Shown: positions 44,654-63,317 of the stretch, in pieces
Numbering within the stretch: the stretch's first letter is position 1
How the letters are laid out: every line of letters begins with the position of its first letter
Assembly (NCBI RefSeq): GCF_023703775.1
Contig: NZ_CP098514.1
Coordinates: 1,550,001 to 1,614,000 of the forward strand
Length of the DNA: 64,000 nt
Source: Haloplanus sp. GDY1
Lineage (GTDB): Archaea; Halobacteriota; Halobacteria; Halobacteriales; Haloferacaceae
Direction of reading: 5' to 3'
Notes under the pieces: generated by a model
Told to the model about the DNA's origin: nothing
The model's database searches: none
Seen by the model: the letters and a program-made list of their open reading frames with translations, nothing else
Position numbers and translations under genes: made by a program

Positions 44654-44655
44654 TG

Positions 44656-45552
44656 TTAGAGTCCTCCTGTGCGGAAGCCTTCGAGGATGCTTTCCTGCAA
44701 CTTGTACACCAACAGGAACGGCGGGATCGACATCAGCGTCGAGGCCGCCATGATCTGCCCCCAGTAGACGTAGTTCTGCTGGACGAACGTCTGGACTGCG
44801 GGCGGGAGCGTCTGCATCGAACTGTCCGGGAGCAGGATCGTCGCCATCGTGAAGTCGTTCCAACTAACCGCGAACGTGAAGATGGCGACGGCGACCATCC
44901 CGGGTTTCGCCATGGGGATCGCCACGTCCTTGAACGAGTGGAACTGTGACGCCCCGTTCATCCACGCCGCCTCCTCGTACGCGATCGGGACGGTCTGGAA
45001 GAACTTCCACATCATCCACATCCCGAACGGCAACGAGATGGCGATGTGGGCGACGCTGATCCCGATGTAACTGTTCAGCAGTCCGATCTGCCGCCAGATC
45101 TGGTACTGCGGGAACGCCAGCAGGATCGGCGGGAACATGTAACTGAACAGGATGAGCCGGGCGAAGTTCTTCCGGCCGCGGAACTGAACCCGGGTCAGGC
45201 CGTAGCCCGCCAGCGTGGACGCACCCACGGTCGAGACGATGGCGATGATGGCCACGAGAACGCTGTTGAAGTACCAGCGCTCGAAGTTACGGTCCGCGAA
45301 GACGCTGATGTACGCGTCGATCTGGAGTGCGGCGATGACCTGCGTCGGGAACCACGTCGGCGTCTGCACGATGTGGTCGTACGGCTGGATGGAGGCCACC
45401 AGCATCCAGTACATCGGGAACATCATCACGGCACACGTCAGGATGACGACGAGGTACAGCGCCGCCTTCCTGACCTGCAGGCGCTCCTGATAGGGGAGGA
45501 TGCCCCCGACGAACGACTGGATCCGGTTCGAGACCCTGTCGGTGAACACCAT
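44656..45552 (-). CDS. Carbohydrate ABC transporter permease, MalG/UgpE type
   Basis: A 298-residue permease with six membrane helices. The cytoplasmic EAA loop is YEEAAWMNGASQFHSFKDVAIPMAKPG, which docks with the ATPase. The arrangement of a longer extracytoplasmic loop after helix 1 (IQPYDHIVQTPTWFPTQVIAAL) is typical of MalG-like CUT1 subunits. Its start codon overlaps the stop of the first permease by one base (TGATG), implying translational coupling. Confidence 0.92.
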   Translation of the reverse strand: MVFTDRVSNRIQSFVGGILPYQERLQVRKAALYLVVILTCAVMMFPMYWMLVASIQPYDHIVQTPTWFPTQVIAALQIDAYISVFADRNFERWYFNSVLVAIIAIVSTVGASTLAGYGLTRVQFRGRKNFARLILFSYMFPPILLAFPQYQIWRQIGLLNSYIGISVAHIAISLPFGMWMMWKFFQTVPIAYEEAAWMNGASQFHSFKDVAIPMAKPGMVAVAIFTFAVSWNDFTMATILLPDSSMQTLPPAVQTFVQQNYVYWGQIMAASTLMSIPPFLLVYKLQESILEGFRTGGL

Positions 45553-46508
45553 CAGCGACCCACCTCCTCGGCGGGGTTGAAGCCGACGAAGTAGACGATG
45601 GCACCGATGCCGAGGAAGCCGAACAGCGTCCCGGCGATGGCGCCGGCCTGTCCGAGCCGGAAGTTGAGGAACGCCATCTCGAAGATGTAGATCGGAAGCG
45701 TCGTCGTCGCCTGCCCCGGACCACCGGTGGTCATGATGTAGATGATGTCGAACTTGTTGAACATCCAGATGCCACGCAGCAGCAGCGTGAGCAGAATGAC
45801 GCCCTTGATCTGCGGGAACGTGATATCACGGAACTTCCGGAGCGGTCCGGCTCCGTTCATCGTCGCCGCCTCGTAGAACTCGTTGGGGATCGACTGCAGT
45901 CGGGCCAGCACCATGATCGTGATGAAGATCGCGAACTTCCAGGAGTTCGCCACGATCAGGGTCGGGAGCGCGATCCGCCCCTCCGTCAGCCAGCCGATTG
46001 GCTGATTGATGAGCCCGATGTCGATGAGGAAGACGTTGATGATGCCGTAGTTGCCGTTGAGCATCAGCCGGAACACCATCCCGACCACCACGGTCGGAAT
46101 GAGGTAGGGCAGGAAGATCATCGCCCGCGCGAGGACGACGCCCCGGAACTCCCGCGAGAGCATCAGCGCCGTCCCGACGCCCACGACGAGCTGGACCGCG
46201 ACCGAGCCGAAGCCGAAGGACACGCTACGCCAGAACGCGTCCCAGTACGCCGGACTGTTTATGACCTCCACGTAGTTCTGAGTGCCCACCCACGTCCACG
46301 TCGGCGAGAGGGCTCCCGCGTCGTAGAGACTGAGATTGAGTGCCCACAGGATCGGCAGGAACGACGCGAAGAGCATCAGCAGCGTGGCTGGACCGACGGT
46401 CAACCCGATGAGGGCCTTCTTGTCCTCGAAGAGGGTTTCGAGCAGCCCACCCCAGGATTTTTTCGGTATTCTGAACCAGTTATTAACGGTGTCTTGTAGT
46501 GTACTCAT
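45552..46508 (-). CDS. Carbohydrate ABC transporter permease, MalF/UgpA type
   Basis: A 318-residue permease with six to seven membrane helices and an N-terminal cytoplasmic stretch of about 35 residues. The EAA motif is EFYEAATMNGAGPLRKFRDITFPQIKG. LSLYDAGALSPTWTWVGTQNYVEV is the usual MalF/UgpA first periplasmic region. Its mRNA start is preceded by a CACACACACACA tract. Separated from the binding-protein gene by 109 bases that contain a stem-loop. Confidence 0.92.
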   Translation of the reverse strand: MSTLQDTVNNWFRIPKKSWGGLLETLFEDKKALIGLTVGPATLLMLFASFLPILWALNLSLYDAGALSPTWTWVGTQNYVEVINSPAYWDAFWRSVSFGFGSVAVQLVVGVGTALMLSREFRGVVLARAMIFLPYLIPTVVVGMVFRLMLNGNYGIINVFLIDIGLINQPIGWLTEGRIALPTLIVANSWKFAIFITIMVLARLQSIPNEFYEAATMNGAGPLRKFRDITFPQIKGVILLTLLLRGIWMFNKFDIIYIMTTGGPGQATTTLPIYIFEMAFLNFRLGQAGAIAGTLFGFLGIGAIVYFVGFNPAEEVGR

Positions 46509-46512
46509 GCTT

Positions 46513-46524
46513 TGTGTGTGTGTG
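46513..46524 (-). repeat. (CA)6 dinucleotide repeat just before the permease start
   Basis: Six CA units on the coding strand, ending 4 bases before the ATG of the first permease. Unstructured CA-rich leaders can aid translation, and dinucleotide runs are prone to slippage. Confidence 0.6.
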
Positions 46525-46559
46525 GTTATCGGACACGTGGAGTTGATTGGCTATATGCA

Positions 46560-46591
46560 CAATAAAAATTTATGGTAACGGTTCGGTCACC
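46560..46591 (-). terminator. Stem-loop with U-rich flank between binding-protein and permease genes
   Basis: On the minus strand GGTGAC-CGAACC-GTTACC (46574-46591) forms a 6-bp stem including one G-U pair, followed by ATAAATTTTTATT. This may cause partial termination or 3'-end processing, giving more binding protein than permease, a usual feature of ABC import operons. Confidence 0.45.
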
Positions 46592-46617
46592 GTGTGGGAG
46601 ACAGATGGGGGCCTGCC

Positions 46618-48123
46618 TCACAGGGCGCCTTGCATCTTCGAGACCGCAGCCTGGATGGCGTCGTCGATGGAGGCGTCCTGGTTGACGTACTGGTACGTCA
46701 TGTTCCCGAGGCCGAAGGTCGTGAAGGCCGAGGAGGCCTCGTAGTTCGGCGGGTTGGTCTCCGCGGCGATGGGCTGGCCCTTCGGGATCTGGTCGAGGTA
46801 GAACTGGAGCTGCTCCTCGGTCATGGACTCGTTGACCAGCGGGATGTCCCACATCGGGTGGGACGGGTCGCGACGGGCCTCGCTCAGCGGCGCGTTGTGC
46901 ACCGGCGCCATCTGGTAGAACTCCGTGAGGAGGTCGTCGTCCATCATGATCATCGAGACGTACTCCTTGGCGGCCTCCGTCGCCTGGCCACCGGACATGA
47001 TGCCCCATCCGGAGGGGAACGTGTAGTCGATGGCGTTGTCGGCGTCGGGGTTGTTGGGGTAGGGGCCGGGGGTGACCTCCTTCGCCCAGGAGCGGCCGCG
47101 CCTGTGTGCCTGTATCTGCGGGCGCGCACCGCCGTAGAAGCTCTCGCCGACGTCGCCGTTGGCGAAGGCGTCCGTCGTCTCGGTCCAGCTCCAGTTGGCC
47201 GTGTCCGCGGAGTACTGGTAGTTGGACTTCAGGGTATCGAGGGCCGTCTGGATCTCCTCGGTGTAGTCGGGGAGGGCGACCTCGATCTCCTCGTTACTGT
47301 CGCTCGCCCACTGGGTGGTCCGCGCGCCGTTCGCCCAGATGTGACAGAGCGTCGTGTTGGTCCCGAGGAACGTCGCCCCGGTGGCGATGGCTCCGCCGGC
47401 CATGTCGTCCCGTGCCTCGTCGACGGTCTGCATGAACTCGCCCCACTCATCGTAGGTGGTCGGCATCCCGAGAGGGCTGGAGCCCTCGAAGCCGACCTCG
47501 TTCGCGACGTCGCCGCGGTACCACCGAACGTTCGGGGCACAGAACGCCGGGAACCACCGGTCAGCGCCGTTGTACTTGATCCGGTACTGGCTCGGGAAGT
47601 TGCTCTTGTTCTGGAACTCGTCGACCACGTCGGTGACGTCCGCCAGCAGGTTCTGGGTGACGTACTGACCGACGTTGAACTCCTCGAGGTTGATGACGTC
47701 CGGGGGATCGCCCGCCTGGAGCAGCTGGGCGATGCGTTTGTTGTACCCCGTGTCCCACGCGTAGGTGACGTTGACCGACGTCCCGCTCTGTTCCTCGTAC
47801 TGGCTCGCCGTCTTGTTCCAGAACTCCTTGAACGTCGGCGACTGCTCCATCGAAATGTAGTGGACGGTCTCGCTTGTCGAGGAGCCGCCACCGCTGCTGC
47901 CGCCGTCGTCGTTACCTTCACCGCCGCCGCCACCGCCACCGCCACCGCCGCCGCCGCCACCGCCGCCACCGCCGCCGCCGGAACATCCGGCGAGCATCGT
48001 GGCGCCGCCTGCGGCCGCGGCTGATACCCCTTTCAGGAAGTCCCGACGCTCGGGATCCTCTTCCTCGGGGCTTGGTTCCGGACTGTTCATCGCGTCGTCT
48101 ACCGAATCTGGCTGGTCTGTCAT
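46618..48123 (-). CDS. ABC transporter substrate-binding lipoprotein (family 1, carbohydrate)
   Basis: A 501-residue exported binding protein. An acidic stretch of 26 residues precedes a Tat motif ERRDFLKGVSAAAAGG and a lipobox LAGC (Cys near 47), so it is lipid-anchored outside the cell. A run of 20 glycines follows as a linker, then Ser/Gly. The remaining ~420 residues have the family 1 periplasmic-binding pattern (FKEFWNKTASQYEEQSGTSVNVTY, PDVINLEEFNVGQYV, FPSGWGIMSGGQATEAAKEYV). The ligand is probably a sugar or sugar acid, judging from the CUT1 permeases and nearby catabolic genes. It is the first gene of the importer operon. Confidence 0.92.
   Translation of the reverse strand: MTDQPDSVDDAMNSPEPSPEEEDPERRDFLKGVSAAAAGGATMLAGCSGGGGGGGGGGGGGGGGGGGGEGNDDGGSSGGGSSTSETVHYISMEQSPTFKEFWNKTASQYEEQSGTSVNVTYAWDTGYNKRIAQLLQAGDPPDVINLEEFNVGQYVTQNLLADVTDVVDEFQNKSNFPSQYRIKYNGADRWFPAFCAPNVRWYRGDVANEVGFEGSSPLGMPTTYDEWGEFMQTVDEARDDMAGGAIATGATFLGTNTTLCHIWANGARTTQWASDSNEEIEVALPDYTEEIQTALDTLKSNYQYSADTANWSWTETTDAFANGDVGESFYGGARPQIQAHRRGRSWAKEVTPGPYPNNPDADNAIDYTFPSGWGIMSGGQATEAAKEYVSMIMMDDDLLTEFYQMAPVHNAPLSEARRDPSHPMWDIPLVNESMTEEQLQFYLDQIPKGQPIAAETNPPNYEASSAFTTFGLGNMTYQYVNQDASIDDAIQAAVSKMQGAL
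47920..47979 (-). repeat. GGC/GGT trinucleotide run coding 20 consecutive glycines
   Basis: Twenty glycine codons of only two types (GGC and GGT) immediately after the lipobox Cys-Ser. The plus strand shows ACC/GCC units. The tract is a microsatellite likely to change length by slippage without shifting frame. Confidence 0.9.
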
Positions 48124-51800: not shown

Positions 51801-52892
51801 TCACTCCGGCGTGAGCACCGCGTGCGTGATGTCGGGCGTGAACTCGTCGCCGGGGAGCTGCTGCTCGATGGCCGTCGCGGCGTCGCGGACGGCGAACTCG
51901 TGGGTGTTGATCGCCGCGATGTCGTCGCCCCGCTTCGCGACGATGTCCATCGCGCGCTCGACGTTGAGCGCCTGCCCTCGCCCCCCGATGAGCATGACCT
52001 CGTCGTGGACGAGGCTGTCGGTGTCGATCTCGGTCGTGTCCCCGACGAGCCCCGGCAACACGACCCGGCCCTGGGGCTCGACGACCTCGAGCCCGAGCTG
52101 GATGGCCTGCGAGGAGGGCGCCGTCACCACGACGACCGCCGCCCCGTCGCCGCCGGTCAGGTCGTCGATCCGCCCCTCGGGATCCGGCTCGTCGACCAGG
52201 ACGGTGTCCGTCGCGCCGAGCGACGCCCCGACGTCGAGTCGGTGGTCGTCGGTCGAGAGCCCCGCGAGGACGATGGGGTCAGCCCCCGCCTCGTCGGCCA
52301 CGACGACCGACGCGAGCCCCTGGGCCCCAGGGCCGATGACCACGACGTCGTCCCCCGGATCGACGTCGCCCTTCTCGACGATCCACCGGACGCCGTTACC
52401 GATCACCGAGCCGAGACAGGCGGCCTTCGCCGGCGTCTCCTCGGCTACCGCGTGGACGCGCGTGTTGGGCGGGAGATACATGTACTCGCCGTAGCCGCCC
52501 CAGAGGTGTGGCGGCTCCGAGCAACTGATCGAGACGCCGAAACACCGGTCCTCCTCGCACATGTGGTAGTTGCCCGACTGGCAGTACTGGCAGTCGTAAC
52601 ACGGGACGTACGGTTCGGGCATCACGCGGTCCCCGACCTCGACGCCCATCTTGTCGAGGCTCCCCTCGGCCCCGTCGACGACGCGGCCGACGACTTCGTG
52701 ACCCATGATCAGCGGCAGGTTGGAGAAGTGCTCCTGCCCGGAGTAGAGGCCGATGTCGGTGCCACACACCGACGTCATCTCGACTTCGAGCAGGGCCCCC
52801 GCCGTCGAGACGTCCGGAACCTCGAACGCCCGCCGTTCGATAGTTTTCGGGCCCGTCAGCACCATCGACTCCGTCGTGTCGTCGGTTGGCAT
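51801..52892 (-). CDS. Zinc-dependent alcohol/polyol dehydrogenase (MDR superfamily)
   Basis: A 363-residue medium-chain dehydrogenase. MTSVCGTDIGLYSGQ and MGHEVVGRVV supply catalytic zinc ligands. CYDCQYCQSGNYHMC holds the four structural-zinc cysteines. VVVIGPGAQGLASVVVAD is the NAD(P)-binding Rossmann loop. It resembles threonine/sorbitol dehydrogenase-like enzymes that oxidise secondary hydroxyls. A second member of the family is at 58648-59745. A TATA box is present 27 bases upstream. Confidence 0.9.
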   Translation of the reverse strand: MPTDDTTESMVLTGPKTIERRAFEVPDVSTAGALLEVEMTSVCGTDIGLYSGQEHFSNLPLIMGHEVVGRVVDGAEGSLDKMGVEVGDRVMPEPYVPCYDCQYCQSGNYHMCEEDRCFGVSISCSEPPHLWGGYGEYMYLPPNTRVHAVAEETPAKAACLGSVIGNGVRWIVEKGDVDPGDDVVVIGPGAQGLASVVVADEAGADPIVLAGLSTDDHRLDVGASLGATDTVLVDEPDPEGRIDDLTGGDGAAVVVVTAPSSQAIQLGLEVVEPQGRVVLPGLVGDTTEIDTDSLVHDEVMLIGGRGQALNVERAMDIVAKRGDDIAAINTHEFAVRDAATAIEQQLPGDEFTPDITHAVLTPE

Positions 52893-52940: not shown

Positions 52941-53711
52941 CTACACTTCGTGGCGGACGCCGAGGGTCAGTCCGCCGTCGACGGTCAGCGTCGTCCCCGT
53001 GATGTACGAGGACCGGTCGGAGACGAGAAAGAGCGTCGCGTCGGCGTGATCCTCGGGGTCCGCCCAGCGGCCGAGCGGGATCTTCTCCCGCGTCTCGCTG
53101 CGCTCCTCCTCCGTCGTCAGGTCCTCGATGAGGGGGGTGAGGGTGCCGCCGGGACAGAGCGCGTTGACGCGGATGCCGTACTCGGCGAGGTCCCACGCCA
53201 TGTGTTTCGTGAGGCCGATGACGCCCCACTTCGAGGCGGTGTAGTTCGCGGGCCCCTCGTAACTGATGTTCTGACCCGCGATCGAGGAGATGTTGACGAT
53301 CCGTCCGTCGCCGCTCTCGGCCATCACCGGCGCCGCCTGCACCGAACAGTTGTACACGCCGGTGAGGTTGACGTCGATGACCTGCTGCCACTCCTCGGGC
53401 GTGATGTCCTGGAAGCGCTCGCCGCGCGAGATGCCGGCGTTGTTGACGAGGATGTCGAGGCTGCCGTACTCCTCGACGGTTCGCTCGACGAGTCGCTCCG
53501 CGTCGTCCATCGAGGAGACGTCACACTGGACCGCCGTGGCCGTGATGCCCGCCGACTCGAACGCCTCGACGGTGTCGGCCGCAGACGACTCGTCGATGTC
53601 GGCGACGACCACGTTGGCGCCTTCGGTTCCCAGTTCTTCGGCGATCCGCCGACCGATCCCTTGTGCTGCGCCGGTGACGATAGCCGTCAGTCCGGCCACT
53701 CGAGAGCCCAT
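52941..53711 (-). CDS. Short-chain dehydrogenase/reductase
   Basis: A 256-residue classical SDR. TAIVTGAAQGIGRRIAEELG is the TGxxxGIG cofactor motif, and VVVADIDESSA has Asp after the second strand, favouring NAD+ over NADP+. ILVNNAGISRG, NISSIAGQ (catalytic Ser) and YTASKWGVIGL (YxxxK) complete the active site. The C-terminal ITGTTLTVDGGLTLG is typical. Likely a sugar or polyol dehydrogenase of this pathway. The ATG at 53711 has ATTAATACC 26 bases upstream. It is divergent from the aldehyde dehydrogenase gene. Confidence 0.92.
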   Translation of the reverse strand: MGSRVAGLTAIVTGAAQGIGRRIAEELGTEGANVVVADIDESSAADTVEAFESAGITATAVQCDVSSMDDAERLVERTVEEYGSLDILVNNAGISRGERFQDITPEEWQQVIDVNLTGVYNCSVQAAPVMAESGDGRIVNISSIAGQNISYEGPANYTASKWGVIGLTKHMAWDLAEYGIRVNALCPGGTLTPLIEDLTTEEERSETREKIPLGRWADPEDHADATLFLVSDRSSYITGTTLTVDGGLTLGVRHEV

Positions 53712-53732
53712 ACCCGCAGTGGCGTGTGACGC

Positions 53733-53741
53733 GGTATTAAT
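53733..53741 (-). promoter_or_regulatory. TATA box of the SDR gene
   Basis: The minus strand reads ATTAATACC. The divergent promoter of the aldehyde dehydrogenase gene lies in the same 132-base gap. Confidence 0.5.
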
Positions 53742-53810
53742 TGTGGGGGTCACGGATCGACGGCGGCGCCGACGCTCCCCGAGCGGCGCTGTCGCGTCGT
53801 ACCATGGCAA

Positions 53811-53820: not shown

Positions 53821-53843
53821 AGAGAGTGTTCGTCTATGAGACG

Positions 53844-55298
53844 ATGTCAGCTGAAGGCAACTACCCGACAGGGCACTATATCGCCGGCGAGTGGCGTGAG
53901 CCCGCCGGGACCGACCACACCGAGGTGCGAAATCCAGCGACGGAGGAGGTGATCGGCGAGTTCCCGACCGCGACGCCGGAGGAGGTAGCGGAGGCGGTCC
54001 GCGCCGCCAACGAGGCACAGATCGAGTGGGGCCGCCGCCCGGCGAAGGAGCGCGGGGACCTCGTCCGCGACGTCGCCGACCTGTTGCTCGAACACCAGGA
54101 CGAACTCGCGGGCCTCCTCGTCGAGGAGCAGGGCAAGCCCCGGTCCGTCGCCGAGGGCGAGATCGCGGCCTCGGCCGACCTCGCGGAGTACATGGCCGAG
54201 TGGGACCGGCGCATCGAGGGGGACATCCTCCCGGGCGACAGTCCGGACGAGAGCATCCACCTCCAGCGACAGCCCAAGGGCGTCGTCGCGGGCATCATCC
54301 CGTGGAACTACCCCATCGCGGTGTTCATCCGGAAGTTCGCGCCGGCGCTGACCGCCGGCAACGCGCTGGTGGCGAAACCCAGCGAAGTCACGCCCGTCGC
54401 GACGCTGCGCCTCGCCGAACTCATCGACGACCACGTCGACCTGCCGGACGGGGTGTTCAACCTCGTCCAGGGCGCCGGCGAGACCGGTGAAGCGCTGGTG
54501 ACCTCCCGGGACGTCGACATGATCTCGATGACCGGCAACGTCGAGACCGGGAAGCACATCATGCGCCAGGCCGCCGACAACCTCACCGAGGTGTCGCTCG
54601 AACTCGGCGGCAAGGCGCCGGCGATCGTCTGGAAGGACGCCGACATCGACGAGGCGGTCGAGGACGTCCTCACCGCCCGCATCACGAACACCGGGCAGGT
54701 GTGTACGTGCGCGGAGCGCGTGTACGTCCACTCGAGCGTCCGCGAGGAGTTCGAGGAGAAGTACATCGACGCGGCACAGGAGATCAGCGTCGGCCCGCCC
54801 GAGGAGGACCCCGACATGGGCCCCCACGTGAACGAACGCGAGTTCGAGAAGACGGACGCGGCCGTCCAGCGGGCCCGCGAGCAGGGCGCCGAGATCCGCC
54901 TCGGCGGGAGCGCCCCCTCCGGCGACTCCTTCGACAGCGGCTACTGGTACGAGCCGACCGTCGTCACCGGCGTCGAGCAGCACATGGACATCATGCAACA
55001 GGAGGTCTTCGGCCCGGTGACGCCGATCATGGAGATCGACACCCTCGACGAGGCCATCGAGTACGCGAACGACTCCCGCTACGGGCTGTCGGCGTACCTC
55101 TTCACCAACGACTACCGGGTCGCGATGCGCGCGGCCGAGGACCTCGAGTTCGGCGAGACGTACATCAACCGGACGCTGGGCGAGTCCTGGCAGGCCCACC
55201 ACATCGGCTGGAACGAGTCCGGAATGGGCGGCGAGGACGGCAAGTACGGCTTCCTCAAGTACACCCAGCTGAAGACCGTCTACCACAACTACTCGTGA
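53844..55298 (+). CDS. Aldehyde dehydrogenase, AldA (lactaldehyde/glycolaldehyde) type
   Basis: A 484-residue NAD(P)-dependent aldehyde dehydrogenase. GVVAGIIPWNYPIAVFIRK and NALVAKPSEVTP form the cofactor site, SLELGGKAPAIV contains the general-base Glu, and ITNTGQVCTCAERVYV the nucleophilic Cys287. The tandem QVCTCAERVYV, the block LAEYMAEWDRRIEGDI and the FGETYINR tail closely recall E. coli AldA, which oxidises lactaldehyde and glycolaldehyde formed from deoxysugars and C2 fragments. It may oxidise an aldehyde released from, or leading into, the sugar-acid pathway. The VOC gene follows after 55 bases. Confidence 0.92.
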   Translation: MSAEGNYPTGHYIAGEWREPAGTDHTEVRNPATEEVIGEFPTATPEEVAEAVRAANEAQIEWGRRPAKERGDLVRDVADLLLEHQDELAGLLVEEQGKPRSVAEGEIAASADLAEYMAEWDRRIEGDILPGDSPDESIHLQRQPKGVVAGIIPWNYPIAVFIRKFAPALTAGNALVAKPSEVTPVATLRLAELIDDHVDLPDGVFNLVQGAGETGEALVTSRDVDMISMTGNVETGKHIMRQAADNLTEVSLELGGKAPAIVWKDADIDEAVEDVLTARITNTGQVCTCAERVYVHSSVREEFEEKYIDAAQEISVGPPEEDPDMGPHVNEREFEKTDAAVQRAREQGAEIRLGGSAPSGDSFDSGYWYEPTVVTGVEQHMDIMQQEVFGPVTPIMEIDTLDEAIEYANDSRYGLSAYLFTNDYRVAMRAAEDLEFGETYINRTLGESWQAHHIGWNESGMGGEDGKYGFLKYTQLKTVYHNYS

Positions 55299-55353: not shown

Positions 55354-55776
55354 ATGATCGGATCATCCCACCACTACGGCGTTACCGTATCGGACATGGA
55401 CGAAGCGCTCGGCTTCTACCGAGACACCCTCGGCATGGAGGAGGTCGACGCCTTCTCCTTCGCCAGCGAGGAGTTCAGCAAGTTCGTCGGCGTCGAGGAC
55501 GTCGACGTCGACCTCGTATTCCTCGACGCGAACGGCTGTGCCGTCGAACTGCTGGAGTACAACAACCCCCCGGGCGGCGACGCGAACGAGGGCGTCGCCA
55601 ACAACGACGTCGGTGCCGCACACTTCTGTCTCGAAGTCGACGACATCGACGCCGTGTACGAGGACCTCTCCGACGAGGTCGAGTTCGTCAACCCGCCGCA
55701 GACGCTCTCGAACGGCGCCGAAGTCGCCTACATGTACGACCCCGACGGCAACGTCGTCGAACTGCTCTCGGAGTAA
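55354..55776 (+). CDS. VOC family protein (glyoxalase-like)
   Basis: A 140-residue vicinal-oxygen-chelate protein with two beta-alpha-beta-beta-beta modules. HHYGVTVSDMDEALGFYRDTLGMEEVD begins module one with the first metal His; ELLEYNNPPGG, AHFCLEVDDIDAVYEDL and MYDPDGNVVELLSE supply the second module and terminal Glu. The substrate is unknown: lyase, isomerase and dioxygenase activities all occur in the superfamily. Cotranscribed with the aldehyde dehydrogenase and followed by an intrinsic-type terminator. Confidence 0.87.
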   Translation: MIGSSHHYGVTVSDMDEALGFYRDTLGMEEVDAFSFASEEFSKFVGVEDVDVDLVFLDANGCAVELLEYNNPPGGDANEGVANNDVGAAHFCLEVDDIDAVYEDLSDEVEFVNPPQTLSNGAEVAYMYDPDGNVVELLSE

Positions 55777-55894: not shown

Positions 55895-55916
55895 CGAGAT
55901 GCTGACAGTGGAACCG

Positions 55917-56342
55917 ATGTTCGAGCAAGTGCACCACGTAGCCTACACCGTGGACGACCTCGACTCGTACCGGACGTTCTTCGGGGACGTCCTGGAGATG
56001 GAGAAGGTCGACTACCGGGAGATGCCCGAGGACGGGTACAAGGCGGCGGTCTACGACGTCGGCGGCGTCTACATCGAGGTTCAAGAGCCCATGGGCGAGG
56101 ACACCGACACCAAAGCCGAGATGGAGGAGTTCCTCGAGGAACAGGGCAACGGCCTCAACCACGTCGCCTACGAGGTCGACGACATCGCGGCCGCCGTCGA
56201 ACGCCTCGAGACGGAGAAGGGGATCGAGCGCGACTGGGACGAGCCCATCGTGGCGCCGACGTTCCCGGACTGCAAGCTGATCGACATGGAGCCCGACACC
56301 AGCCGCGGCATCTACCTGCAGCTCGTCGAGGAGCTGGACTGA
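55917..56342 (+). CDS. VOC family protein (methylmalonyl-CoA epimerase-like)
   Basis: A 141-residue protein starting MFEQVHHVAYTVDDLDSYRTFFGD, with GLNHVAYEVDDIAAAVERL opening the second module and RGIYLQLVEE giving the final metal Glu. The His, Glu and second-module His positions match methylmalonyl-CoA epimerases, but specificity cannot be inferred and an epimerase or isomerase of a sugar acid is equally possible. Its stop is 6 bases before the SAF-domain oxidoreductase gene, indicating an operon. An upstream ATG at 55899 would add six residues. Confidence 0.85.
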   Translation: MFEQVHHVAYTVDDLDSYRTFFGDVLEMEKVDYREMPEDGYKAAVYDVGGVYIEVQEPMGEDTDTKAEMEEFLEEQGNGLNHVAYEVDDIAAAVERLETEKGIERDWDEPIVAPTFPDCKLIDMEPDTSRGIYLQLVEELD

Positions 56343-56348
56343 TCGACG

Positions 56349-57692
56349 ATGCTCAACATACCGCCACAGCTTCGGGATCGAGAGGAGCCGATCGACGTCG
56401 GCGTCATCGGCTCCGGTCTGTTCGGGACGAAACTCGTCGACCAGATCGAGCGCGTCACCGGCATGCGGACGGCCGCCATCGCCGACATCGACCTCGACAA
56501 GGCCGCCCAGGCGTACGCCGAGTCGGGCGTCTCGACCGACGGCGTGGTCGAGACGACCGACCTCGGGGAGCTGAACGCGGCCATCGCCGACGGGCAACAC
56601 GCCGTGATCGCCGACGGGCCAACCCTCGCCCGCAGCGACGTCGAGGTCGTCGTCGAGGCGACCGGCATCCCCGAGGTCGGTGCCCGGCACGCCTACACGG
56701 CCATCATGGAGGAGACACACGTCGTGATGGTGAACGTCGAGGCCGACACCGTGGTGGGTCCGACGCTCGCCGACCTCGCGGACAAGGCCGGCGTCACCTA
56801 CTCGATGGCGTACGGCGACCAGCCGTCGCTCCTCGCCGAACTGTACGACTGGGCCCAGACGGTCGGCCTCGACGTCGTCGCCGCCGGCAAGGGGAACCCG
56901 TTCATCGAGGAGTACCGGTACGGCACCCCGGACGACGTCTTCGACCGGTGGGGCTTCGACGAGGAGTTCGTCGAGGAACACGGGCTCAACCCGTGGATGT
57001 ACAACTCCTTCCTCGACGGGACGAAGGTGGCCGTCGAGATGTGCGCCGTCGCCAACGCGACCGGGCTCACGCCCGACGTCCAGGGGATGCACCTCCCGGA
57101 CGCCTCCATCGAGGAGATTCCCCAGAAGCTCCGCCCGAAGGAGGACGGCGGCGTCCTGAACGAGGCCGGCGTCGTCGACACCGTCAGTTCGCTCCGCCCC
57201 GACGGCACTGAAATCGACGACAACATCAGCTTCGGCGTGTTCATCGTGACGACGACGCCGAACGAGCGGGTCCAGGAGTACCTCGAACAGAGCAGCGGCT
57301 CCGGGATGTACGTGGCCAACGACGGGAAGTATCAGGTGTTCCACCGGCCCTACCACCTCCCCGGCACGGAGACGTCCGTGAGCGTCGCCAACGCCGCCAT
57401 CCGGAACGAACCGACGGGCGTGCCGCGCGAGCGCGTCGCCGAGGTGGTCGGCGGCGCCAAGCGGACGCTGGAACCGGGCGAGGAACTCGACGGCGGCGGC
57501 GGCTACACCGTCTACGGCCTGCTCGAGGAGGCCGAGACGGCGGAGGAGCAGAACCACGTGCCCTTCGAACTCCTCGACGGCGCCGAGGTGGTCTCGGAGA
57601 TCGCACAGGACGAGATCGTCACCTACGACGACGTCGAACTCGACGAGGACTCGTTCATCTACCGGCTCCGGCGCCTGCAGGACGCCGCCTGA
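56349..57692 (+). CDS. Homoserine-dehydrogenase-like oxidoreductase with C-terminal SAF domain (COG4091)
   Basis: A 447-residue protein. PIDVGVIGSGLFGTKLVDQI (about 15-35) is an NAD(P) Rossmann loop, and VVVEATGIPEVGARHAYTAI a homoserine-dehydrogenase-like motif. VDTVSSLRPDGTEIDDNISFGVFIV and FHRPYHLPGTETSVSVANAA continue the catalytic domain. Residues ~360-447 form a SAF-like domain (KRTLEPGEELDGGGGYTVYG, EIVTYDDVEL). The family includes, as I recall, the Brucella DXP-reductoisomerase-like enzyme DRL, which couples redox to a carbon-skeleton rearrangement. Haloarchaea make isoprenoids from mevalonate, so DXP is not the expected substrate. An oxidative isomerisation of a branched sugar acid is a fitting but unproven role. 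Confidence 0.85.
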   Translation: MLNIPPQLRDREEPIDVGVIGSGLFGTKLVDQIERVTGMRTAAIADIDLDKAAQAYAESGVSTDGVVETTDLGELNAAIADGQHAVIADGPTLARSDVEVVVEATGIPEVGARHAYTAIMEETHVVMVNVEADTVVGPTLADLADKAGVTYSMAYGDQPSLLAELYDWAQTVGLDVVAAGKGNPFIEEYRYGTPDDVFDRWGFDEEFVEEHGLNPWMYNSFLDGTKVAVEMCAVANATGLTPDVQGMHLPDASIEEIPQKLRPKEDGGVLNEAGVVDTVSSLRPDGTEIDDNISFGVFIVTTTPNERVQEYLEQSSGSGMYVANDGKYQVFHRPYHLPGTETSVSVANAAIRNEPTGVPRERVAEVVGGAKRTLEPGEELDGGGGYTVYGLLEEAETAEEQNHVPFELLDGAEVVSEIAQDEIVTYDDVELDEDSFIYRLRRLQDAA

Positions 57693-57746: not shown

Positions 57747-58589
57747 TCACTTCTTCGATTCCGCACGGTCGACGAGGGCTCGAAGCTGATCGACGACGGG
57801 CTTGTCGACCGCCGCGCCATCGATCACCGTGACGCCCTCGTCCGTCGCCTCGAAGGCGTCGATGACCCGCTTCGCGCGGGCCACCTCCTCGGCCGAGGGC
57901 GAGAAGACGTCGTTGATCACCGCCGCCTGTTCGACCGTCATCGCCGCCTTCCCGTCGAACCCGACGGCCTTGGCGGCGCGTGCCTCCGCGCGCGTCCGCT
58001 CCTCGTCGTGAACCGCGGCGAGGTTGGGCTTGTCGACGGCGTGGACCCCCGCGCCGTTGGCCGCCATCGACAGCAGGAACCGCGGCACCGAGAGGTCGGT
58101 CTCGTCGAGGATCGACATCCCCATGTTCATCTGGAAGTCGATGGCCGCGAACATGAGGCCGTGAATCCGCTCGCTCACCCGGGCGATCCCCTGGGCGTCG
58201 AACATCGCGCTCGGCTTCTCGATCAGGGGGTGGAGGTCGACGTCGACGCCGTACTCGTCCAACACGTCGTCGACGAGGCGGACCTCGCTCGCGTCCCGCA
58301 CGTCGGGGAGGAGCAGGACGTCCGGCAGGGCGTCGGCGGTCGCGATCGTCCGGACGTCGTCGATCCCCCGGTCGGTGTCGACGCCGTTGACGCGCACGGC
58401 GAGTCGCTGTGACGTCTCGCCGAGGTCGGCGAGCGTCTCCAGCGTCCACTCGCGGGCCGCGGCCTTCGCGGCAGGGCTGACGGTGTCTTCGAGGTCGACG
58501 ATCACGACGTCGGCGGGCGAGCCGATCGCCTCGACGACGCCCTCGTCGTCGGACCCGGGAACGAACAGATAACTGCGGTCGGCGGACAT
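57747..58589 (-). CDS. HpcH/HpaI aldolase/citrate lyase family protein (CitE-like)
   Basis: A 280-residue TIM-barrel lyase. SYLFVPGSDDEGVVEAIGSPADVVIVDLEDTVSPAAK is the CitE N-terminus with the metal-binding and CoA-contacting residues. LPDVRDASEVRLVDDVL and PLIEKPSAMFDAQGIA carry the catalytic Arg/Glu region. MFAAIDFQMNMGM replaces the usual GxxDLxxDLG, with the second Asp changed to Asn. Family activities are cleavage of malyl-CoA, citramalyl-CoA or hydroxy acids. It may split a C-C bond late in this pathway. GTTTACTATC on the minus strand is its TATA box. Confidence 0.87.
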   Translation of the reverse strand: MSADRSYLFVPGSDDEGVVEAIGSPADVVIVDLEDTVSPAAKAAAREWTLETLADLGETSQRLAVRVNGVDTDRGIDDVRTIATADALPDVLLLPDVRDASEVRLVDDVLDEYGVDVDLHPLIEKPSAMFDAQGIARVSERIHGLMFAAIDFQMNMGMSILDETDLSVPRFLLSMAANGAGVHAVDKPNLAAVHDEERTRAEARAAKAVGFDGKAAMTVEQAAVINDVFSPSAEEVARAKRVIDAFEATDEGVTVIDGAAVDKPVVDQLRALVDRAESKK

Positions 58590-58612
58590 GACGACCGTCG
58601 CTACGGCCGCCG

Positions 58613-58622
58613 GATAGTAAAC
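58613..58622 (-). promoter_or_regulatory. TATA box of the CitE-like gene
   Basis: The minus strand reads GTTTACTATC, 28 bases before the ATG at 58589. Confidence 0.5.
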
Positions 58623-58647
58623 GTTGGGTGGGGAGCCGAGTCGACCG

Positions 58648-59745
58648 TCACTCGGGGACGAGCGACGCCCGCGCCACGTCGCGCTCGTCGGAGCGGCGGA
58701 TGGCGGCGTCGACGTCGTCGAGGGCGAACCCCTCGCCGACCAGTTCGTCGAACGGGTAGTCGTCGGCCGTCTCGCGCAGGAAGTCGAGGGCCGTTCGGAG
58801 ATACCAGGGGTCGTAGCGCATCACCGACACCACGTTGATCGACTTGCGGGTCATCGCCCCGGGATCGAACTCGGTCGTGTGGCCGGGGATGACGTTCCCC
58901 ATCTCGAGGTAGCGCCCGCCGGGGCGGAGGAGTTCGATCCCCTCGGCGAACGCCTCGGGGACGCCCGCGACTTCGACGCCCACGTCCGCACCCTGCCCGT
59001 CGGTCAGTTCGCGGACCCGGTCGGCGCGCTCCTCGACCGAGTCGTACGTCCGGAGGTCGACGGTGTGGTCCGCGCCGAAGCGTTCGGCCAGGTCGAGGCG
59101 GTCCGCGACCCCGTCGATCACGATCGTCTCGGCCCCGCGTTCGGTGGCCGCCGCGACGGCGTTGAGGCCGAGGCCGCCGGCGCCCTGCACGACGACCGTA
59201 TCGCCCCACCCGACCTCGGCCTTGTCGAGGCCGCCGAGCACCTGCGCGAGCGCGCAGTTCGCGCTCGCGGCCGGCCCCTCGGGGACGTCGGGCGACACCT
59301 TGTAGAAGAACTGTTCGGGGTAGACGTAGTAGTGGGAGGCGAACGTGCCGTGAAAGTGCGGGTGCGTGTCGGCCGACTGCGACCAGTAGTCGTAGGCGTG
59401 CTCGCAGAGGCGGAACTCGCCGGCCCCACAGCGGGGACACGCCTCACAGATCGCGAAGTACGTGGGGACGATCAGGTCCCCCTCCTCGACGGGGCGGCCC
59501 GCGTTGTCGGTCGTGACGTTCTCGCCGAGGTCGACGATGCGACAGAGCCCCTCGTGACCCAGCGGCCCGTCGTTGATGTGGGGGTGACCGCCCCGCCACA
59601 TGTGCAGTTCCGAGCCACAGACGTTGGCGCGGACGATCTCGGTCACGATGGCGTCCGGGTCCGGCGACGGGACGTCGAACTCCTTCAGTTCGACGTTCTT
59701 CGTCCCGTTCAGACAGGCGATCCGGCCGCGAGTGTGCGAACTCAT
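58648..59745 (-). CDS. Zinc-dependent alcohol/polyol dehydrogenase (second copy)
   Basis: A 365-residue MDR dehydrogenase. VCGSELHMWRGGHP and LGHEGLCRIVDLG have catalytic zinc ligands, CEACPRCGAGEFRLCEH the structural-zinc cysteines, and VVVQGAGGLGLNAVAAATERGAETIVIDG the NAD-binding loop with an acidic residue favouring NAD. An aromatic insert (YDYWSQSADTHPHFHG) follows the structural zinc site. It is only distantly similar to the enzyme at 51801-52892. Expected substrate is a polyol, sugar or hydroxy acid. Minus-strand TAGATTTACC is the TATA box. Confidence 0.9.
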   Translation of the reverse strand: MSSHTRGRIACLNGTKNVELKEFDVPSPDPDAIVTEIVRANVCGSELHMWRGGHPHINDGPLGHEGLCRIVDLGENVTTDNAGRPVEEGDLIVPTYFAICEACPRCGAGEFRLCEHAYDYWSQSADTHPHFHGTFASHYYVYPEQFFYKVSPDVPEGPAASANCALAQVLGGLDKAEVGWGDTVVVQGAGGLGLNAVAAATERGAETIVIDGVADRLDLAERFGADHTVDLRTYDSVEERADRVRELTDGQGADVGVEVAGVPEAFAEGIELLRPGGRYLEMGNVIPGHTTEFDPGAMTRKSINVVSVMRYDPWYLRTALDFLRETADDYPFDELVGEGFALDDVDAAIRRSDERDVARASLVPE

Positions 59746-59770
59746 GACAGCACATGCAGAACAGGCCAGG

Positions 59771-59780
59771 GTAAATCTAT
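59771..59780 (-). promoter_or_regulatory. TATA box of the second alcohol dehydrogenase gene
   Basis: The minus strand reads TAGATTTACC, about 30 bases before the ATG at 59745. Confidence 0.5.
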
Positions 59781-59795
59781 CGCCGGTGTGTCCGG

Positions 59796-60557
59796 TCAGT
59801 CGGCGTCCACGAGGTCCAGGGGCGTCTCGATCCGGACGTCCGGATCGACGGCGTCGGCGCGGTCGGCGCGGCAGTGCAGCGACACGAGGATGCTGTCGAT
59901 CCCCGCGCGGTTGGCGCCCTCGACGTCGGCGCCGGGCGTGTCCCCGACCATCGCGACGGGGCGGGTCGAGACGCGGTCGAGCGCCAGGTCGAACAGCGGG
60001 GCGTTTGGCTTCCCCACGACCGTCGCCTCCGTCCCGCTCGCGGCCTCGATGGCCCGGAGGATCGCCCCCGTCCCCGGAGCGACGCCGTCGCCGGACGGGT
60101 AGGACGTGTCGCCGCTCGTGGCGACCAGCGGCAGGTCCCGCTCGTAGACGAGCCGGGTCGCCGTCTCGATGTCGTCGTACGTGACGGTGGGGTCGAAGCC
60201 GACGACGACGGCGTCGGCGTCGCGCTCCCGGTCGGCGATCCCCCGCCGACCCAGTTCCGTTCGGAAGCCGTCCATCCCGACGAGGTAGACGCTCTCGACG
60301 CCGCGGTCGGCGAGGTACGTCGCCGTCGCCGAGGCCGCGCTCGTGACCTGGTCCACCTGCGTGTCGATGCCGAACCCGGTCAGCTTCTCGGCGAACTCCT
60401 CGCGGGTGTGCTGGGAGTTGTTGGTGACGAACTGGATCTCCTTGCCGGCGTCACGGAGTCGGCGGAGCGTCTCGACGGCGCCCGTGACCGGCTCGTCGCC
60501 GACGAAGACGACGCCGTCGAGGTCGAAGAGAAACGCCCCGTACTCGTCTGCGAGCAT
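59796..60557 (-). CDS. HAD-IIA family phosphatase (NagD/phosphoglycolate phosphatase-like)
   Basis: A 253-residue HAD-superfamily hydrolase. FLFDLDGVVFVGDEPV is motif I with the nucleophile and acid Asp, VTNNSQ motif II, GKPNAPLF the motif III Lys, and MVGDTPGADVEGANRAGID motif IV. The cap region is type C2A (SYPSGDGVAPGTGAIL), as in NagD and phosphoglycolate phosphatases. It is divergent from the RLP gene across 116 bases. It could remove phosphate from a product of the kinase/RLP branch, such as a phosphorylated C2 or C4 fragment. Confidence 0.9.
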   Translation of the reverse strand: MLADEYGAFLFDLDGVVFVGDEPVTGAVETLRRLRDAGKEIQFVTNNSQHTREEFAEKLTGFGIDTQVDQVTSAASATATYLADRGVESVYLVGMDGFRTELGRRGIADRERDADAVVVGFDPTVTYDDIETATRLVYERDLPLVATSGDTSYPSGDGVAPGTGAILRAIEAASGTEATVVGKPNAPLFDLALDRVSTRPVAMVGDTPGADVEGANRAGIDSILVSLHCRADRADAVDPDVRIETPLDLVDAD

Positions 60558-60673: not shown

Positions 60674-61933
60674 ATGACGGACCGATTCACCGCGACGTAC
60701 AGGATCGAGACACCGGCGTCGGTCCGGGAGGCGGCGGACGCGATGGCCGGCGAGCAGTCGGCGAGCACGTTCGTCGACGTTCCGGGGGAGAGCGAGGAGT
60801 TACAGCGGCGCCACGGCGCCGACGTCGTCGACGTGACCGAACTGGGGACGACAGCCGAGCCGACGCTGCCGGGCGTCGATCCGGGGTCCGAGGAGGCGTC
60901 CGAGTACACCCGGGCGGAGGTGCGGATCGCGTACCCCATCGAGAACGTCGGCGTCTCCGTTCCGCAGCTGCGGACGACGGTCGCCGGCAACGTCTTCGAG
61001 ATGCAGCCGCTGTCCGGGATCCGGCTGCTCGACGTCGACGTCCCGGACGTCTACGGGGCGGAGTGCCCGACGCCGCAGTTCGGAGTCGAGGGGACGCGCG
61101 AACTGATCGGGGTTCACGACCGGCCGATCGTGGGGACGATCATCAAGCCGAGCGTGGGGCTGTCGCCGGACGAGACGGCGTCGCTCGTCGAGACGCTGGT
61201 CGAGGCGGGCGTCGACTTCATCAAGGACGACGAACTCATCGCCGACCCGCCGTACTCCCGGTTCGAGGACCGCGTCGAGGCGGTCATGTCGGTCATCGAC
61301 GACCACGCCGAGGAGACGGGCAAGCGGGTCATGTACGCGTTCAACGTCACCGGGAGCGTCGAGGAGATGCGCCGGCGACACGACGTCGTCGCGGAGGCGG
61401 GCGGCACCTGCGTCATGGTGAGTCTCAACAGCGTCGGCCTCGCGGGCGTGCTGGCGTTGCGCCGGCACAGCGACCTGGCCATCCACGGCCACCGGAACGG
61501 GTGGGGCGCGCTCTCCCGGTGTCCCCAGCTCGGCTTCGAGTACACGGCCTACCAGAAGCTCTGGCGGCTGGCCGGCGTCGACCACCTCCACGTCAACGGC
61601 ATCCGGAACAAGTTCACCGAATCCGACGAGTCGGTCGTCGCCTCCGCGCGGGCGGTGCAGCGACCGATCCCGGGCGACGACGGCATCCTCCCGGTGTTCT
61701 CGTCCGGGCAGTGGGCGGATCAGGCCCACGACACCTACGCGGCGCTCGGCAACGTCGACCTGATGTATCTGGCCGGGGGCGGGATCATGGGCCATCCGGA
61801 CGGCCCGGCCGGCGGCGTCGACGCGCTGAAACAGGGATGGGAGGCGGCCATGGCCGGCGTGCCGCTCGCGGAGTACGCGGAGGACCACGAGGCGCTCCGC
61901 CGCTCGATGGAGGCGTTCGGCACCGATGAGTGA
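60674..61933 (+). CDS. RuBisCO-like protein (form IV), OiaX/OiaT-like
   Basis: A 419-residue RuBisCO large-chain homologue. Active-site residues kept (spinach numbering in brackets): GTIIKPSVGLS with Lys158 [175]; DFIKDDEL with Lys184, Asp186 and Glu187 [carbamylated 201, 203, 204]; IHGHRNG with His273-Arg274 [294-295]; DHLHVNGIRNKF with His306 [327] and loop-6 Lys313 [334]; SSGQ near 345 [379-381]; LAGGGIMGHPDGPAGG with the phosphate loop; AGNVF with Asn106 [123]. Lys177 of true RuBisCO is Ser160 and the loop-6 sequence is not GTVVGKLEG, so CO2 fixation is unlikely. Metal-dependent enolisation should remain. The kinase gene overlaps its end by 8 bases. Bacterial homologues decarboxylate or cleave 3-oxo-isoapionate 4-phosphate. 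Confidence 0.92.
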   Translation: MTDRFTATYRIETPASVREAADAMAGEQSASTFVDVPGESEELQRRHGADVVDVTELGTTAEPTLPGVDPGSEEASEYTRAEVRIAYPIENVGVSVPQLRTTVAGNVFEMQPLSGIRLLDVDVPDVYGAECPTPQFGVEGTRELIGVHDRPIVGTIIKPSVGLSPDETASLVETLVEAGVDFIKDDELIADPPYSRFEDRVEAVMSVIDDHAEETGKRVMYAFNVTGSVEEMRRRHDVVAEAGGTCVMVSLNSVGLAGVLALRRHSDLAIHGHRNGWGALSRCPQLGFEYTAYQKLWRLAGVDHLHVNGIRNKFTESDESVVASARAVQRPIPGDDGILPVFSSGQWADQAHDTYAALGNVDLMYLAGGGIMGHPDGPAGGVDALKQGWEAAMAGVPLAEYAEDHEALRRSMEAFGTDE

Positions 61934-63317
61934 CGACGACCTCCTCCTGGCGTACTACGGGGACGACCTGACGGGATCGACCGACGCGATGGAGGCGCTG
62001 GGCCTGGGCGGCGTTCGCACGGCGCTGTTTCTCGAACCGCCGACCGAGTCGGAGCTGACGGGGCGGTTCGCGGATCTGGACGCGGTCGGCGTCGCCGGCC
62101 GCAGTCGGTCGATGTCCCCCGACGAGATGGACGAGGTACTCCCCGAACACTTCGAGCGGCTGCTCGACCTCGATCCGGCCTTCGTCCAGTACAAGGTCTG
62201 CTCGACGTTCGACTCCGCGCCCGACGTCGGCAGCATCGGCCACGCGATCGACGTCGGGCAGGACGTGTTCGACTCCCCGTTCGTCCCCGTGGTGGTCGGC
62301 GTCCCCGCGCTGGAGCGGTACGTCGTCTTCGGACACCTGTTCGCGACGGTCGGCGACCGGACCTACCGGATCGACCGCCATCCGACGATGAGCGACCACC
62401 CGGTGACGCCCATGACCGAGAGCGACCTCTGTCGACACCTGGGCGAGCAGACCGACCGGCCGACGGATCGCTTCGACGTGCTCGCCCTGGAGGGGGACGG
62501 CGTCGACGCCGAGTTCGCCCGCCTCCTGGCGTCGGATCCGGAGATCGTCCTGTTCGACACGCTCGACGGATCGCACCTGCGGGAGGCCGGGCGTCTGCTG
62601 TGGTCGCGGGCGCTCGAACTCGCGGACGGCCCGCTCTTCGCGGTCGGCTCCTCCGGACTCGGATACGCGCTGACGGCGTACTGGGCCGATACGGGGGCGG
62701 TGTCGCCGCCCGAGTCGGTGCCGACGGCCGACCCCGTCGACCGCATCGCCGTCATGTCCGGGAGCGCGTCGCCGGAGACGGCCGCGCAGATCGACGCCGC
62801 CCTCGAACGCGACGACTTCACGGGGATCAGGCTCGACACCCCGTCGCTCGTGGTCCCGGCGGAGGCGGCCGCGGAGCGCGACCGGGTCGTCGAGGCGGCG
62901 ACCGAGGCGATCGGCGCCGGCGACAGCGTCGTCATGTACGCCGCCCGGGGACCGGACGACCCGGCCATCGAGCGGACCCGGGCGGCCGCCGAGGCGGCGG
63001 GGGTCGACGACGTCGGCGGGCGCCTCGGCCGGGAGCAGGGGACGATCCTCGAGACCGTCCTCAGGGAGACCGACCTCTCGCGGGTCTGCATCGCCGGCGG
63101 CGACACCAGCGGCTACGTCGCGCCGGCGCTCGACGTCTACGCCCTCGAGTTCCACAGCCCCATCGCTCCCGGGTGTCCGCTCTGTCTCGCGAGTTCGTCC
63201 GACGAGGAGTTCGACCGACTGGAGCTAGCGCTCAAGGGTGGACAGACGGGCGGTGAGCGATACTTCGAGCGCGTGCGCCGGGGATCGTCGGAGTACTGGC
63301 CCGATAGCAGCGATTGA
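61926..63317 (+). CDS. DUF1537 four-carbon acid sugar kinase family (OiaK-like)
   Basis: A 463-residue sugar-acid kinase. The N-terminal domain begins LLLAYYGDDLTGSTDAMEALG (acid-sugar-binding Asp residues 13-14) and has VQYKVCSTFDSAPDVGSIGHAI. The C-terminal nucleotide domain has AVMSGSASPETAAQI, CIAGGDTSGYVA and the terminal LALKGGQTGGERYF. Characterised members phosphorylate tetronates (DtnK, LtnK, OtnK) or 3-oxo-isoapionate (OiaK). Here PdxA2 and OtnC-type partners of tetronate kinases are absent while the RLP gene overlaps, favouring an OiaK-like role. The stop lies inside a long inverted repeat. Confidence 0.92.
   Translation: MSDDDLLLAYYGDDLTGSTDAMEALGLGGVRTALFLEPPTESELTGRFADLDAVGVAGRSRSMSPDEMDEVLPEHFERLLDLDPAFVQYKVCSTFDSAPDVGSIGHAIDVGQDVFDSPFVPVVVGVPALERYVVFGHLFATVGDRTYRIDRHPTMSDHPVTPMTESDLCRHLGEQTDRPTDRFDVLALEGDGVDAEFARLLASDPEIVLFDTLDGSHLREAGRLLWSRALELADGPLFAVGSSGLGYALTAYWADTGAVSPPESVPTADPVDRIAVMSGSASPETAAQIDAALERDDFTGIRLDTPSLVVPAEAAAERDRVVEAATEAIGAGDSVVMYAARGPDDPAIERTRAAAEAAGVDDVGGRLGREQGTILETVLRETDLSRVCIAGGDTSGYVAPALDVYALEFHSPIAPGCPLCLASSSDEEFDRLELALKGGQTGGERYFERVRRGSSEYWPDSSD

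Follow-up and report, generated by a model that had tools for sequence, protein, structure and literature searches.

In 14 of 15 haloarchaeal loci, gene pairs that encode a RuBisCO-like protein (RLP) and a DUF1537 sugar-acid kinase have nearby either a gene of the ApnO family or a gene of the DXR-II/DRL family, and none of the 15 has both. We describe this alternation starting from a stretch of 64,000 nucleotides of Haloplanus sp. GDY1 (contig NZ_CP098514.1, positions 1,550,001 to 1,614,000; hereafter the window), in which a DRL-family gene lies 3 kb upstream of such a pair. The alternation is what is new here, while the pair itself is the haloarchaeal branch of a known kind. We propose that in this locus the DRL-family enzyme stands in for ApnO on an unphosphorylated acid, and that the locus would encode the lower part of D-apiose-type branched sugar-acid catabolism, on an island that includes a sugar importer. 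Judged from sequence comparison, this reading of the whole pathway, with DRL in place of ApnO and an RLP of the OiaT-like kind, has slightly better than even chances of being correct.

The RLP-kinase gene pair

The RLP gene (60674..61933, + strand, 419 aa) runs from an ATG at 60674 to a TGA at 61931-61933 and matches the Pfam family RuBisCO_large (E 4e-73) and the RuBisCO N-terminal domain. The DUF1537 kinase gene (61926..63317, + strand, 463 aa; SBD_N and NBD_C, E 6e-51 and 8e-33) has its ATG at 61926, within the last RLP codons, and the two genes overlap by 8 nucleotides (61926-61933). The initial annotation had placed the end of the RLP gene inside the start of the kinase gene, as is the case, and had listed a set of active-site residues, all of which we recovered in an alignment of 68 RLP family members with seven form III RuBisCOs. 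K158, K184, D186, E187, H273, R274 and K313 are invariant across the family, and H306 is kept in 59 of the 68 members. Ser160 occupies the position of RuBisCO K177, which is Lys in the form III enzymes aligned and S (42), N (16), A (9) or G (1) in the family. RuBisCO W66 is replaced by F33, and Phe is found there in 68/68 members. The AlphaFold model (pLDDT 92) is closest to 3nwr (TM 0.92-0.96), an RLP of Burkholderia fungorum that is 45% identical and has the same active-site set, but with Asn at position 160 instead of Ser.

Among the NCBIfam models OiaX (NF042437) ranked first for the RLP with 509.9 bits, followed by form III RuBisCO with 287. For the kinase OiaK (NF042436) came first with 495.8 bits, against 179.3 for OtnK and 74.4 for DtnK. 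The curated cut-offs are 700 bits for OiaX, 700 bits for OiaK and 497 bits for form III RuBisCO. In our trees a branch with a support of 100/99 and a length of about 2 sets the kinase-linked RLPs apart, far from form III and from second copies of the MtnW type in Paenibacillus. The window RLP belongs to this kinase-linked OiaX/OiaT family, as it lies outside form III and MtnW in the tree and adjoins a DUF1537 kinase; Pfam, NCBIfam, trees, alignment and AlphaFold all bear on this placement, and Pfam, NCBIfam and adjacency to the RLP on that of the OiaK-like kinase. Since haloarchaeal genome annotation names the RLP gene a ribulose-bisphosphate carboxylase family protein, the label of a catabolic RLP guards against misreading it as CO2 fixation.

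In Natrinema SYSU A 869 (L189 19995-22643) RLP and kinase lie in a single open frame of 882 aa, with the RLP annotated as a fragment only. The joined frame is a fusion, a frameshift or a sequencing error.

A DRL-family gene alternates with ApnO

The DRL gene of the window (56349..57692, + strand) encodes a NAD(P) oxidoreductase of 447 aa with a DRL_cat domain (PF21135) and a SAF-like C-terminus. The PF16896 (PGDH_C-domain) family, to which ApnO belongs, is absent genome-wide from the window's genome (G000) and from its congener G256, whereas positive controls such as G122 and G026 were found. By this marker G000 lacks the canonical D-apionate pathway, which depends on an ApnO encoded in the same genome. 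DRL is rare: it is present in 4/242 haloarchaea and in three of 12 congeners, and all three of these have the RLP-kinase pair. Plasmids served as an independent test: only three of those in PLSDB carry a DRL that is >60% identical (those of Natronosalvus rutilus, Halomarina PSR21 and Natronococcus CG52). All three fall among the eight haloarchaeal plasmids with an RLP, with DRL 15-20 kb from the pair, and the remaining five have an ApnO-family gene near the pair.

Taken together, 15 haloarchaeal RLP loci include eight with ApnO, six with DRL (the window among them), one with neither within reach and none with both. The probability of no overlap would be 0.0014 for independent loci; the 15 are only partly so. 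The exchange of DRL and ApnO requires at least three switches on the RLP tree. Such strict alternation beside the same pair suggests that ApnO and DRL carry out the same rearrangement step.

A further congener, G259, is rearranged and diverged (identities of 65% for the RLP, 52% for the kinase and 63% for DRL), and its RLP does not group with that of the window. Forced grouping was rejected (approximately unbiased test, p 0.002, for an RLP group that was picked after the tree was seen). The link between DRL and the pair does not come from common inheritance of the pair alone, because the G259 RLP belongs to another lineage. This bears on the possibility, which we consider rather unlikely, that DRL is an unrelated passenger on a mobile catabolic island, with a gene that escaped recognition doing the work of ApnO, or with no such work needed. 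In the window DRL does not share an operon with the pair, and genes for cpn60, MFS and CitE proteins likewise travel with the island; yet the association holds in G259, with its rearranged locus and RLP of other descent, and in three plasmids from outside the genus, in which most other island genes differ.

DRL has altered ligand anchors

The window DRL is homologous over its whole length to the DXR-II/DRL of Brucella (PDB 3upy/3upl; 245 bits, 38% identity), with which it has the NAD(P) domain in common. Lys191, Lys193 and Thr229 anchor the phosphonate ligand in DXR-II, for which diagnostic sites are also listed (PMC3847144). The diagnostic residues (G121, H250, R320, V351 and others) and Lys191 are kept in the window DRL, but Lys193 is replaced by Asn and Thr229 by Val, leaving the DXR-II anchor set incomplete. 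Each of the six RLP-linked DRLs keeps Lys191 and has Asn at 193 together with Val or Pro at 229.

Haloarchaeal isoprenoids are made via the mevalonate route, and conversion of 1-deoxy-D-xylulose 5-phosphate by a haloarchaeal DRL is therefore unexpected. Unlike Brucella DXR-II, DRLs of the window type accompany an RLP-kinase pair, and their hosts use this route. A replacement for ApnO would have to be a DXR-II-type rearranger of an unphosphorylated acid, because the kinase acts afterwards, and we infer that a DRL with altered anchors may be adapted to just such an acid. If so, the DXR-II family, known only from isoprenoid synthesis, would have been recruited to sugar-acid rearrangement by non-orthologous replacement, and a function could be assigned to uncharacterised DXR-II-like proteins.

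Another haloarchaeal DRL, in G119 (L143 8062-11019), follows a gene for an FGGY sugar kinase and keeps Lys191 and Lys193, with Ser229. These intact anchors suggest that this archaeal enzyme acts on another substrate, one that is phosphorylated.

The reaction of the RLP

Two groups can be told apart among 92 kinase-linked RLPs by the residues at RuBisCO positions E60, N123, K177, H327 and S379. In 21 of them, all from Rhizobiales, these are Asp, Gly, Ala, Gln and Gly/Cys, and this clade comprises the RLPs that score above the OiaX cut-off. In the remaining 71, among them every haloarchaeal RLP of the set, E60 is kept or falls in a gap, N123 and H327 are kept, and so, mostly, is S379. The window RLP is 48-50% identical to those of the Rhizobiales OiaX clade, which have the same kinase partner, but it reads E, N, S, H and S at the five positions and thus lacks the residues of that clade. 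Two reactions are on record for the family: the RLP of Agrobacterium K84 decarboxylates 3-oxo-isoapionate 4-phosphate, and a Xanthobacter RLP transcarboxylates and hydrolyses the same compound (Carter et al. 2018, as summarised in PMC6302742).

An OiaT-like outcome, 3-phosphoglycerate and glycolate, is favoured for the window RLP because the residues for recarboxylation and cleavage are retained; we regard this as having about an even chance. Lys177-aided enolisation would be dispensable, since a beta-keto acid yields the enediolate by decarboxylation. In Haloterrigena KLK7 (L194 22775-26777) genes for an aldo/keto reductase, a pyruvate kinase and an enolase directly follow the RLP-kinase pair, and the latter two suit 3-phosphoglycerate as the product.

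Less probably, the RLP is a plain OiaX, a 3-oxo-isoapionate 4-phosphate decarboxylase giving L-erythrulose 1-phosphate that is isomerised onwards. OiaX is the best curated model for the RLP, beta-keto acid decarboxylation is common to OiaX and OiaT, and decarboxylation has been verified for the K84 enzyme (PMC6302742). However, the RLP reaches 510 of the 700 bits needed, none of the five active-site changes of the OiaX clade is present in it, and no RpiB-family isomerase was found in G000, although a non-homologous isomerase could serve. The sharp split of active sites within the family makes the roles of residues for decarboxylation only, and for carboxylation with cleavage, testable.

Proposed pathway and its substrate

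In the pathway that we propose, a branched sugar, most likely the plant sugar D-apiose, would be imported and oxidised by the zinc dehydrogenase of the island to a lactone or acid. The DRL-family enzyme, in place of ApnO, would then oxidise and rearrange unphosphorylated D-apionate to 3-oxo-isoapionate, which the DUF1537 kinase, to judge from its kinship with OiaK, would phosphorylate at C4. The RLP would decarboxylate this beta-keto acid at the carbamylated-lysine/metal centre to an enediolate, a step that needs no RuBP-like proton abstraction, which makes the loss of Lys177 understandable. The enediolate would most likely be recarboxylated and hydrolysed to 3-phosphoglycerate and glycolate, as by OiaT, because Glu60, Asn123, Lys334, His327 and Ser379, which serve gas addition and cleavage, are kept. 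Protonation only, giving L-erythrulose 1-phosphate as by OiaX, is the disfavoured fate. The stronger claim, that a DXR-II-family enzyme with altered phosphate anchors has become a D-apionate oxidoisomerase and repeatedly replaced ApnO, and that an archaeal RLP carboxylates and cleaves, in the manner of RuBisCO, a tetrulose enediolate that it has itself made by decarboxylation, is put forward tentatively, as somewhat less than an even bet.

The locus shares with the D-apiose and D-apionate pathways (OiaK, OiaX/OiaT; PMC6302742) an RLP beside a DUF1537 kinase of the same families. In bacteria and several haloarchaea an ApnO-family gene stands beside this pair, whereas the genus of the window lacks ApnO and has a linked DRL-family gene in its stead. 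The window further differs in its haloarchaeal host, in scores below the OiaX and OiaK cut-offs and in another type of sugar ABC (ATP-binding cassette) importer. The initial annotation had held that the pair performs the same reaction, or an analogous one, on a branched or 3-oxo sugar acid. OiaX and OiaK as best models, the co-occurrence of the two genes and their ApnO-family neighbours support this idea without proving it.

Several points weigh against our reading. Both proteins fall short of the 700-bit cut-offs, the RLP with 509.9 and the kinase with 495.8 bits. A rhizobial OiaX member reaches 788 bits on its model, yet the kinase adjoining rhizobial OiaX scores only 468.5 on OiaK, for which reason we consider the OiaK cut-off narrow, and members beside ApnO in other bacteria likewise score under the OiaX and OiaK cut-offs. 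DRL is not operonic with the pair in the window, and the absence of ApnO is genome-wide for G000 and G256, while for the plasmids and G259 it applies to the stretches examined. A lactonase did not come to light. The enolase and pyruvate kinase neighbours come from a single locus, and the split between OiaX and OiaT follows residue logic. The RLP of Ochrobactrum anthropi is reported to act in the breakdown of hamamelose, with 3-phosphoglycerate and glycolate as its products (Kim 2018, as cited in PMC8914248), and if it sits in the Rhizobiales OiaX clade, as that of Brucella tritici does, the rule from residue to reaction is not clean.

The same hamamelose work raises another, unlikely substrate: a homologous branched acid, for example 3-oxo-hamamelonate 5-phosphate, derived from hamamelose or 2-carboxyarabinitol, with only a dehydrogenase needed ahead of the kinase and the role of DRL lying elsewhere. 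An RLP oxygenase is reported in the D-hamamelose pathway (Kim 2018, as cited in PMC10176493 and PMC8914248), hamamelonic acid phosphate is carboxyarabinitol 1-phosphate (Beck 1989, as cited in PMC9833046), and genes for a zinc alcohol dehydrogenase and a short-chain dehydrogenase (SDR) are present in the island. Against this, the strict alternation of ApnO and DRL suggests a shared rearrangement step, which hamamelonate would not need.

A role of the RLP as methionine-salvage enolase or as carboxylating form III RuBisCO can be practically discarded: fold and catalytic residues are common to all and G000 has no second RuBisCO-fold gene, but the RLP scores 158 bits on MtnW and 200 on YkrW, under cut-off, and 287 against the 497 required for form III, stands apart from both in the trees, has Ser160 and Phe33 for Lys177 and Trp66, and has no mtn genes seen beside it. 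Clustering with MtnW/YkrW or true RuBisCOs, named at the outset as an outcome that would overturn the assignment, was thus seen neither in the hidden Markov model scores nor in the trees.

A second RuBisCO-fold gene of rhizobia was considered as the hamamelose RLP and ruled out, as it sits with mtnK, mtnA and transketolase genes. This separate RLP type (L170; L173 8797-9915; L175 8797-9915), found on plasmids in Ensifer and Shinella, apparently belongs to methylthioribose metabolism.

The gene island in Haloplanus

The whole region is syntenic in G256, with about 84-92% protein identity for the core genes. A carbohydrate ABC importer (43472..48123, - strand) comprises an ATPase (43472-44863), a permease (45552-46508) and a solute-binding protein (46618-48123); G256 and G259 have a second gene for a permease. 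The importer is kept together with DRL and the RLP-kinase pair in three congeners. The zinc alcohol dehydrogenase (51801..52892, - strand), a candidate sugar 1-dehydrogenase, and a protein of the VOC/glyoxalase fold (55354..55776, + strand) are kept with the pair in three congeners. In G259 the importer genes are headed by DRL; what the locus shares beyond these and the pair is the zinc dehydrogenase and one VOC protein. The SDR dehydrogenase (52941..53810, - strand) and an aldehyde dehydrogenase (53826..55298, + strand) are present in G256 and were not found near the pair in G259. A second VOC-fold protein (55899..56342, + strand) is encoded immediately upstream of DRL.

Between DRL and the pair lie genes on the - strand that are syntenic in G256 (57747..60557), encoding an HpcH/HpaI-CitE lyase (57747-58589), a zinc dehydrogenase (58648-59745) and a HAD phosphatase (59796-60557). 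Base composition gave no signal of a recent island, with a GC content of 0.69-0.72 over 57 to 64 kb. The island extends downstream of the pair (G000:C1 ~1615800-1629900; L002 3836-17390) with genes for a HIBADH-like dehydrogenase, two proteins of the galactarate/altronate dehydratase type, an acyl-CoA synthetase and an iron-sulphur protein with a LUD domain; the majority are syntenic in G256.

Distribution and probable transfer of the pair

On genome contigs the kinase adjoins the RLP in 78/80 related loci, the two exceptions being loci at contig ends, a pairing far beyond chance. An OiaX-like RLP (about 500 bits) is present in 5/242 haloarchaeal genomes, every other match reaching 193 bits or less, and an OiaK-like kinase in 8/242, including all five with the RLP; co-occurrence of the two genes across haloarchaea, suggested as a check on the pairing, is thus borne out. 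ApnO-family proteins (PF16896) were found in 5/242, together with the kinase in all five and with the RLP in four.

Haloarchaeal RLPs form one side of a branch (support 59/99 in the larger set and 95/99 with 15 haloarchaeal sequences) and are nested among bacterial RLPs. This fits one early transfer from bacteria followed by patchy spread, often by plasmid. A Rhizobium plasmid carries, one after another, genes for OiaX, the kinase, a PGDH_C protein, a sugar ABC importer and Gfo/Idh/MocA; the series in Halalkalicoccus FCH27 runs RLP, kinase, PGDH_C protein and GntP permease. ApnO-family genes thus adjoin the pair in related haloarchaea as in the Rhizobium cluster. We take the PGDH_C protein to be ApnO on the strength of earlier D-apiose work and its gene context; no ApnO model of NCBIfam matched it. 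An argument from wider catabolic neighbours in other haloarchaeal clusters was dropped, as most share only the pair.

A protein with the Asp/Glu-racemase fold recurs beside the pair in Chloroflexi, Acidobacteria, Planctomycetes and some haloarchaea (L049 13766-14422; L050 14320-15015; L047 10890-11549; bacterial loci e.g. L052, L053 and L059), often without a nearby ApnO. As the missing isomerase it was ruled out, being absent from G000. Several haloarchaea (L044 11435-12241; L045 11483-12286; L046 11497-12297; L149 9122-9928) encode, immediately before the RLP, a conserved protein that has no Pfam or NCBIfam match and contains two similar halves (GSHG...AGVGKDDAGI); an AlphaFold model built with three sequences had a mean pLDDT of 35. 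G122, whose genome has no RLP, carries genes for an OiaK-like kinase, an ApnO-family protein and, after these, a DeoC/LsrF-like class I aldolase (L048 10657-13910), which may stand in for the RLP.

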